Of a stretch of DNA of 64,000 nt, positions 43,085 through 55,740 are shown piece by piece. The position numbers were made by a program, and so were the translations under genes. How positions within the stretch are numbered: position 1 is the first letter of the stretch; the number at the start of each line of letters is the position of its first letter. The notes under the pieces were generated by a model, which ran no database searches, was not told the DNA's origin, and saw only the letters and a program-made list of their open reading frames with translations. This DNA is from Geomonas silvestris (GTDB lineage: Bacteria > Desulfobacterota > Desulfuromonadia > Geobacterales > Geobacteraceae), in contig NZ_BLXX01000005.1 in NCBI RefSeq assembly GCF_014193515.1, positions 124,001 to 188,000 of the forward strand, given 5' to 3'.

Positions 43085-43116
43085 TTGACAAGGGGAGGGG
43101 GGGTGATTATCATTAT
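43085..43116 (+). promoter_or_regulatory. Promoter with overlapping Fur-box-like operator
   Basis: TTGACA-N17-TATCAT. The minus-strand reading of 43104-43116 (ATAATGATAATCA) matches 13 consecutive bases of the 19-base Fur consensus and covers the -10 element, the usual site for Fe(II)-Fur repression. The preceding 42925-43084 shows nothing recognisable. Confidence 0.72.
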
Positions 43117-43181
43117 GGGCATCCTCCGGGAAGTCTTAGCGAGGGAAACAAATCCAACAGCGAGAAGGAGGCCAATCGAAC

Positions 43182-43244
43182 ATGTGGACACAACATTATA
43201 TGGTTCGCCCGGTGACCCGCTGCAAAGAGGGTTGCCCTAGTTAG
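43182..43244 (+). CDS. 20-residue micro-ORF with CX3C motif
   Basis: ATG 43182 follows AAGGAGG at 10 bases and runs 20 codons to TAG, just at the first of two hairpins. The peptide starts MWTQHY and ends RCKEGCPS, with two Cys three residues apart, a central VRP and no hydrophobic leader. It is the only ORF on a short transcript between a Fur-type promoter and a terminator. No family is recognised. It could be a metal-binding microprotein, a leader peptide, or incidental to a small regulatory RNA; the strong ribosome-binding site favours translation. Confidence 0.5.
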   Translation: MWTQHYMVRPVTRCKEGCPS

Positions 43245-43266
43245 CCCGCCGGAAAAAGCGGCGGGC
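43244..43266 (+). other. Hairpin directly after the micro-ORF stop
   Basis: GCCCGCC pairs with GGCGGGC across a 9-base A-rich loop, beginning at the last base of the stop codon. There is no T-run, so it is probably part of the transcript's 3' structure. Confidence 0.6.
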
Positions 43267-43277
43267 GTGCCCCAGAG

Positions 43278-43308
43278 GCCCCCTGGTCACACGAACAGGG
43301 GGCTTTTT
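43278..43308 (+). terminator. Rho-independent terminator of the micro-ORF transcript
   Basis: GCCCCCTG and CAGGGGGC arms with a 10-base loop and T5 tail. Confidence 0.88.
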
Positions 43309-43488: not shown

Positions 43489-43517
43489 TTGACAAGAACT
43501 CGGCTTTCGGCTATTCT
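43489..43517 (+). promoter_or_regulatory. Sigma-70 type promoter of mltD
   Basis: TTGACA-N17-TATTCT, 43 bases before the mltD start codon. Confidence 0.75.
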
Positions 43518-53078: not shown

Positions 53079-53155
53079 GGGCCTATAGCTCAGTTGGTTA
53101 GAGCTACCGGCTCATAACCGGTCGGTCCCAGGTTCGAGTCCTGGTGGGCCCACCA
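53079..53155 (+). tRNA. tRNA with CAT anticodon, probably tRNA-Ile2 (lysidine)
   Basis: 77 bases with encoded CCA. The anticodon CAT is at 53113-53115 in the loop CTCATAA. The acceptor stem starts GGGCC and includes the C4-G69 and C5-G68 pairs that TilS reads when it makes lysidine, with A73 as discriminator. These favour tRNA-Ile2 (decoding AUA) over elongator Met, but a Met assignment cannot be fully excluded from sequence alone. The initiator features (a C1 mismatch at the acceptor end) are absent. It has its own promoter and terminator. Confidence 0.95.
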
Positions 53156-55306: not shown

Positions 55307-55740
55307 TTGGCCGAAGCAGACCAGATGGCCGCTGCCTGCCTGAGCTTAGGCGCAGGCGGGGGGAGGAAAGTCCGGGCTCCACAGGGCATGGTGCTGGATA
55401 ACGTCCAGCGGGGGCAACCCCAGGGATAGTGCCACAGAGAGAAGTCCGCCCGTCACGCTGAAGCTGCCAAAAGCGGGCTCGCCCGCCAAAGGCTTCAGCG
55501 CAGCCGGGTAAGGGTGAAAGGGTGAGGTAAGAGCTCACCGGGTCCGGCGGTGACGTCGGATGCCAGGTAAACCCCACCAGGAGCAAGACCAAATAGGGAA
55601 GCGTCAAGGGCGGCCCGTCCGTGCTTCCGGGTTGGTTGCTTGAGGGTGCCGGCAACGGTACTCCTAGATGAATGACCATCGCCCGCTTCCGGGTAACCGG
55701 CTGCGGGAACAGAACCCGGCTTACGGGCTGCTTCGGCCAA
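55307..55740 (+). ncRNA. rnpB: RNase P RNA, bacterial class A
   Basis: The catalytic RNA subunit that trims tRNA 5' leaders. All signature regions are present: GAGGAAAGTCCGGGCTCC, GGTAAGGGTGAAAGGGTG, GGTAAACCCCACC followed by CAAGACCAAATAGG, and CTAGATGAATGAC with ACAGAACCCGGCTTA near the 3' end. The terminal helix TTGGCCGAAGCAG (5') with CTGCTTCGGCCAA (3') sets the ends, and T7 follows. At about 434 bases it is slightly longer than typical. Its promoter would overlap the inverted repeat just upstream. Confidence 0.96.

Follow-up and report, generated by a model that had tools for sequence, protein, structure and literature searches.

Of the systems described so far, the one that comes nearest, by analogy, to working in the manner proposed below is CutF of Rhodobacter capsulatus (cutFOG), an upstream ORF that carries a CxxxC metal-binding motif, a stalling-like C-terminus and a stem-loop controlling the next gene (PMC9973294). 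The unit described here likewise combines an ORF bearing a Cys motif with an RNA structure behind it. CutF is a protein exported via a signal sequence and having a proline-rich C-terminus (PMC9973294), whereas no signal sequence was seen by eye in the present peptides. These are, moreover, mostly some 15-28 aa long, their RNA structure starts 8 nt after the Cys codon, and the unit often precedes a terminator. CutF is compared here for its manner of working, and not as a supposed relative. TnaC-type arrest leader peptides (PMC3902921) are similar in length and act in the ribosome tunnel, as is proposed here. Unlike in TnaC, to which no sequence resemblance was seen by eye, a conserved RNA structure lies where the leading edge of the ribosome would be expected, and the position of the stop codon is free.

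Luteovirus frameshift signals are compact H-type pseudoknots, and the pseudoknot that replaces the hairpin in most of the distant relatives described below resembles them in its size, its two-nt first loop, its A-rich last loop and its position several nt past the decoding site. In contrast to these signals, no slippery heptamer was seen by eye, and the phage copies of the element stand behind stop codons, past which the frame is mostly short. The STAXI motif, another small repeated pseudoknot, is described as occurring in tandem, with frequent UUCG loops and near DNA-handling genes (PMC2864571). Rfam comparison of ten element-bearing loci at E values up to 10 returned no match to STAXI, nor to any other family over the element sites compared.

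The locus lies in the window, that is, the whole stretch of 64,000 nucleotides of Geomonas silvestris DNA that was analysed, to which all positions refer. Judged by sequence, it appears to be a compact transcription unit that is self-contained, measures about 200 nt, starts from a promoter of its own and is composed of the following features:

43085..43113, + strand: sigma-70-type promoter TTGACA-N17-TATCAT (TTGACA at 43085, TATCAT at 43108)
43104..43116, - strand: Fur-like run of 13 consecutive bases equal to the consensus, over the -10 box (14/19 overall)
43119..43164, + strand: 5' leader, kept in Geobacterales as CATCCTCCGGGAA ... GCGAGGGA ... AATCCAACAGCGA (30-locus alignment)
43165..43171, + strand: ribosome-binding site AAGGAGG
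43182..43244, + strand: 20-codon ORF MWTQHYMVRPVTRCKEGCPS (ATG at 43182, TAG at 43242-43244) with the core RPV[TS][RH]CKEGC
43211..43236, + strand: candidate ORF-internal stem, GGTGACCC with GGGTTGCC, weakly supported
43236..43243, + strand: 8-nt spacer from the last conserved Cys codon to the first paired base
43244..43266, + strand: stop-codon hairpin GCCCGCCG/CGGCGGGC, 8 bp (43244-43251 with 43259-43266)
43278..43308, + strand: intrinsic terminator GCCCCCTG/CAGGGGGC + TTTTT, a stem followed by five T

The preliminary description of this locus had listed the promoter, the AAGGAGG site, the 20-codon ORF, the stop-codon hairpin and the terminator, and all of them are present. The first base of the hairpin is the G of the ORF stop codon (43244). 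Two promoter-like sites occur between 42900 and 43600, against a mean of 0.1 in shuffled sequences, the second being the own promoter, at 43489, of the downstream neighbour, which encodes an SLT/LysM protein. A pattern-based search listed no terminator at 43278-43308, because its loop limit was 8 bases and the loop here has 10; terminator-like hairpins were found by our own script in 76 of 79 related units. The segment 43119-43312 folds with z = -3.18, only 1 of 200 shuffles being equally good. Upstream lies a gene for a DUF362 protein with 4Fe-4S motifs; a function deduced from this neighbour was rejected, as it represents only one of several contexts in which the unit occurs.

A 261-base query gave DNA matches in 14 of 15 genera and in 35 of the order's 39 genomes, a count that includes the genome from which the window comes. 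The four genomes with no DNA match were G024, G029, G031 and G035, and in two of these, G029 and G035, a profile search finds the peptide. A short ORF with RPV[TS][RH]CKEGC was present in all 30 loci (of 39 matches) that were fetched by DNA similarity alone, beginning with MWT in 29 and with MNF in one, and a TTGAC box stands at the promoter position in nearly all aligned rows (absent in L030, masked in L025). Since these loci were collected by DNA similarity, the constancy of the core is not built into the set, and the match in 35/39 genomes together with the peptide in 30/30 loci excludes a chance origin; the conserved microprotein with a C-x3-C motif in a self-contained unit, one of the possibilities raised from the window alone, was thus borne out. 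In a larger collection of 118 units, the core codons vary synonymously, with five codons in use for Arg and four for Val, and Ser exchanges with Thr, which is the pattern that had been named as supporting a microprotein. These units were gathered by a regular expression demanding R-P and CKEGC, whose constancy is for this reason built in, and only the codon changes are informative. Beyond CKEGC, the C-terminus varies in both sequence and length. The window's genome holds a second copy (MWTARFRIRPVSHCKEGCSM), in whose 10-kb surroundings no exporter gene was seen by eye among the ORFs.

The hairpin at the stop codon was aligned in 48 of 114 tails, after four of the 118 units that are not of the Geobacterales type had been dropped. 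In these 48 units 98.4% of the cells are paired and two-sided changes occur at 6 of the 8 pairs, so that the compensatory changes that had been put forward as the mark of a conserved stem were also found. The pairing measures were reached by none of 500 shuffles and by none of six slid versions of the alignment. The candidate stem within the ORF behaves differently, with 76.8% of cells paired and a two-sided change at one of six pairs in 28 distant units. The unit is therefore real, its peptide being under selection and a conserved RNA structure being placed at its stop codon.

The Fur-like run over the -10 box was among the features from which an iron-responsive unit had initially been read. 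Scored with the Fur 19-mer consensus (ATAATGATAATCA), the window has its 13-base run and the sister species G008 also has a 14/19 site; an identity of at least 13/19 was found in 4 of 30 orthologous promoters (the window, G008 and two others), compared to 4 of 400 segments of 100 nt drawn at random from the window. At a threshold of at least 12/19 the figures are 9/30 and 12/400, an excess that is favoured by the AT-rich -10 region of promoters, the random stretches not being AT-rich. The remaining 26 promoters, among which one N-masked sequence is counted, have no site of at least 13/19. The Fur-like box stands in the window, but the same site is kept in few orthologous promoters, and Fur control is not well conserved across the relatives; iron-responsive Fur control as the explanation of the unit is rather improbable. 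The related proposal of a small RNA analogous to RyhB found no support in Rfam: at gathering scores, Rfam matched in the window only a class A RNase P RNA (55313-55738) and a tRNA-Met gene (53079-53155), both ordinary. As the Fur-like site is not kept in most relatives and no Rfam family was matched, the Fur-regulated RyhB analogue was dropped as a general reading.

A pattern scan of genome contigs returned at least 116 stretches, with the core in frame in 114 of those listed, and among the listed matches the core was also found in Omnitrophota, a Wolfebacteria, a Thermoanaerobacteraceae and a Selenomonadales genome. A profile search further recovered forms such as MKRFMIPRVAHCSEGC in other Desulfobacterota genomes. 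In most of the units seen outside Geobacterales, the plain hairpin is replaced by a 26-nt element, GTCCYRRGYANGACNNNAAAMKGCYC, which is missing from the Wolfebacteria and Thermoanaerobacteraceae loci, L095 and L116. In the phylum of the window, a covariance model combining the peptide codons and the 26-nt element matched 51 of 297 genomes; eight of the 51 belong to the window's order, and the figure for the rest of the phylum is 43 of 289. The same model matched 42 of 145 genomes of Omnitrophota, with the phylum confirmed, and, in a third phylum that we take to be Bacillota, 26 of 149. Judging from these matches, very short predicted genes of this family occur in at least three phyla; genes so small usually escape gene finders. 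This spread could not have been read from the window alone, and the same holds for the pseudoknot form, for the stress genes near the unit and for the link to phages, all presented below.

The peptide tolerates some change at its second ligand. Among 112 units with the 26-nt element, 83 have C-x3-C, eight C-x3-H, 12 C-x2-C/H and one C-x4; the others comprise seven with no [HR]C ORF and one ORF called in the wrong frame. In diverged units the 26-nt element is better kept than the peptide. Even so, the element goes with the peptide in bacteria: searched for by itself in 198 genomes of the window's phylum, it occurs at 30 sites and the reversed pattern at none, 29 of the 30 coinciding with matches of the peptide-plus-element model (one of the 29, the second site of G059, matches only the element half). 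The lone site without such a match is L513 (G026 contig 12, 240159-240184). Two further observations concern the distribution of the two structures. In the order of the window, G035 has on contig 9 a copy (L222) of the pseudoknot form with TGA directly after CKEGC, and two more copies, one of which (L173) has the plain hairpin. At L131 (contig G436:C436, 2354-2416, minus strand), a tandem pair of pseudoknots stands behind one peptide ORF.

The 26-nt element is an H-type pseudoknot, both stems of which are backed by covariation. In the bacterial set the second stem shows two-sided changes at four of five pairs, and the first stem, GTC/GAC, is invariant; it was therefore tested in phages, from which its support comes. 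Viral contigs contained at least 120 stretches with the exact element and at least 120 with the compensatory first stem GACC...GTC, but none with the broken stem GACC...GAC. In a generalised search, 240 listed viral loci yielded 306 sites against 10 in the reversed sequence. The two first-stem forms used for fetching account for 263 of these sites, and the other 43 (to be set against the 10 in all of the reversed search) include ATC/GAT 19 times, TTC/GAA six times and CTC/GAG three times.

The unit could also be a small RNA, either with a dual function, for which SgrS/SgrT is the model, or with a regulatory one alone, its ORF then playing a secondary part. Its shortness, the conservation of its 5' leader, the covariation in its stem and the pseudoknot that outlasts the peptide in diverged units would fit such an RNA. 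That the same peptide core accompanies hairpin and pseudoknot forms alike, with synonymous changes, argues against such an RNA, as does the 5' leader, which by eye is not shared outside Geobacterales, and this explanation is considered improbable.

The strongest hint at function comes from the geometry of the unit. The pseudoknot begins 8 nt past the end of the second Cys/His codon in 89 of 93 units, the count covering pseudoknot units with [HR]C-x3-[CH] only, and the same 8 nt separate the Cys codon from the hairpin in the Geobacterales units, gap-free in 48/48 aligned. The rule is limited to the C-x3 form, because in the C-x2-C form the distance is longer (3 nt more overall, 81 vs 78 model positions). 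Stop codons fall variably before, inside or after the start of the pseudoknot, and it is for this reason that the fixed distance refers to the Cys codon. Two different structures held at one distance suggest that the conserved Cys codon is the reference point for the position of the structure.

This fixed spacing despite differing structures was counted in favour of a model in which a nascent Cys/His peptide pauses the ribosome against the downstream RNA structure, a reading that we prefer to the others but hold tentatively, as somewhat short of an even chance. According to this model, the ribosome would slow down or stall once its exit tunnel is occupied by the peptide ending in RPV[T/S/A]-[H/R]C-x2-GC and its mRNA entrance has run into the hairpin or pseudoknot. 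Given the usual footprint of the ribosome, the structure is expected at this entrance when the second Cys/His codon occupies the P site. The Cys/His pair (C-x3-C, sometimes C-x3-H) could then let metal, thiol or oxidant state tune the pause. In Omnitrophota, with stress genes close behind, the unit might serve as a cis-acting leader peptide. The copy in the window, whose terminator is followed by a promoter of the next gene, would rather be a stand-alone microprotein or small RNA with an output that depends on the pause. No known arrest motif was identified in the peptide. Several observations speak against the pause model. The genes that follow the unit change from phylum to phylum, contrary to what is expected of a simple cis leader; the pseudoknot outlasts the peptide in diverged units, and in three genomes (L227-L229) it stands behind an ORF lacking [HR]C; the C-x2-C form has a longer distance; and in Geobacterales a terminator follows, for which no releasing alternative pairing was identified.

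In Omnitrophota, the gene surroundings were read with neighbour families assigned by Pfam. The 26 loci read there derive from the best 30 of 44 matches, four having been dropped for lacking the pseudoknot pattern used. An Rrf2-family gene lies right behind the unit in 15 of the 26, and in seven of these 15 a hybrid-cluster (prismane) protein is in view. At least one gene for Rrf2, Hcp, ferritin, rubrerythrin, superoxide reductase or FprA (flavodiiron) occurs within about 1.5 kb in 23/26 loci, a count without a random-locus baseline and based on a gene list drawn from an earlier set of loci that shares three or more members with the 26. In 12 of 20 Omnitrophota promoters (20 of 20 loci) a palindrome TGATAC-N7-GTATCA is found, as the core only in L615. 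Rrf2 is the next gene in all 12 palindrome loci (eleven directly, L616 via a match of the same genome) and in none of the other eight, and the palindrome is possibly the operator of the Rrf2 regulator. In L609-L619 and L624 it adjoins the -35 box. In Omnitrophota the position of the unit, with stress genes close behind it, suggests a leader peptide; in the window the terminator and a second promoter intervene.

In Geobacterales, an HlyD-family gene is the first long downstream ORF in 39 of 94 units, the set being restricted to Geobacterales units with at least 1 kb downstream (nine with shorter flanks and the loci outside Geobacterales were dropped). The genes that usually come next encode an ABC ATPase, so labelled by eye, and a MacB-type permease, assigned by Pfam; the 39 cases fall into at least three upstream settings, labelled by eye. 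Among the 18 loci read in the third phylum (of 20 loci, 16 genomes), four have a MacB-type permease gene upstream, and in three a gene for a heavy-metal P-type ATPase follows at a distance of about 355 nt. None of these stress, exporter or ATPase genes was found near the window copy within the stretch examined.

Position directly before an HlyD-family gene, in 39/94 units, would suit a transcription attenuator of exporter genes based on a terminator/antiterminator switch. No antiterminator was found, however, and in Geobacterales no alternative pairing was identified that would release the terminator. When the hairpin is masked, the terminator loses one pair at most in five of six examples (the sixth is incomplete). 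An automatic tally gave 42 intact and 34 altered terminators, with a crude cut-off. As the unit is in addition kept without exporter genes, for instance in the window, attenuation was rejected as highly unlikely.

A strong rival to the pause model remains, namely that the product is a free microprotein acting in trans after release. It might, for example, be a Cys/His ligand (metal or thiol) or a small regulatory peptide for an envelope exporter, and the 3' structure would do no more than protect or end the mRNA. A trans role is plausible because gene contexts differ, the HlyD-family gene following units with several different upstream neighbours and the MacB-type permease genes of the third phylum lying upstream (4/18 loci); units with their own promoter and terminator and the C-to-H exchange at the second ligand also agree with it. 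A free peptide, on the other hand, would not need the 8-nt spacing to the structure, and a C-terminus that varies in sequence and length after CKEGC also speaks against one; we regard the free microprotein as unlikely on balance. Two further ideas, a RiPP precursor and a selenocysteine signal, were weighed from general knowledge only and set aside.

In phages the pseudoknot occurs on its own. A set of 243 elements was taken from the listed viral contigs L255-L374 and L379-L498, with simple length-based ORF calling; 213 lie outside called ORFs, 187 following a gene of their own orientation and 184 preceding one, and 30 lie inside. An [HR]C motif was found upstream of one element out of 243. The start of the element peaks 6 nt after a stop codon (exactly 6 in 40/243), and 47% of the elements begin 4-16 nt past a stop, compared to 5% of random positions. 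In the 125 sites at most 20 nt from a stop, the codon is TAA in 89, TAG in 21 and TGA in 15, and the frame past the stop is shorter than 30 codons in 101 and at least 30 codons long in 24. A programmed frameshift or read-through signal was rejected, because stop positions vary freely and the open frames past phage stops are mostly short; no slippery site was seen by eye. The 6-nt peak behind stops points to a role in translation termination or in mRNA end protection.

Thirteen phage records, chosen for holding the element, contain from zero to seven copies each with at most two mismatches, on one strand, and none of the reversed pattern. The 79-kb Synechococcus phage S-EIV1 (L377, KJ410740.1) has seven copies on one strand between 25.9 and 43.0 kb. 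In phage L259 (6223-9727, minus strand), five hammerhead type II ribozyme matches were found with E values up to 0.026, two of them above the gathering score, and a pseudoknot copy stands about 107 nt ahead of two of the five.

Taken together with the phage elements, the pause model could be extended, still more tentatively and with about one chance in three in our estimation, to an undescribed ribosome-facing module, in which a 26-nt pseudoknot or an equivalent hairpin is held at a fixed distance from a decoding site. The Cys/His peptide of bacteria would sense metal or redox stress, and phages would use the pseudoknot alone, 6 nt after stops, on terminating ribosomes or on the mRNA end left.

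Rfam matched only tRNA in 20 distant loci, and NCBIfam returned no family at E values up to 10, a search in which a 20-aa query has little power. Among literature titles and abstract beginnings, which give partial coverage, no description of the peptide or the pseudoknot was found, so that one may exist; RPVTHCKEGC and GTCCTGAGCATGAC, entered as text in one spelling each, likewise gave no match. Ordinary annotation easily misses such a family, which in Omnitrophota adjoins genes of nitrosative and oxidative stress. If ribosome pausing proves true, these very short genes would constitute a nascent-chain sensor with a built-in RNA brake.
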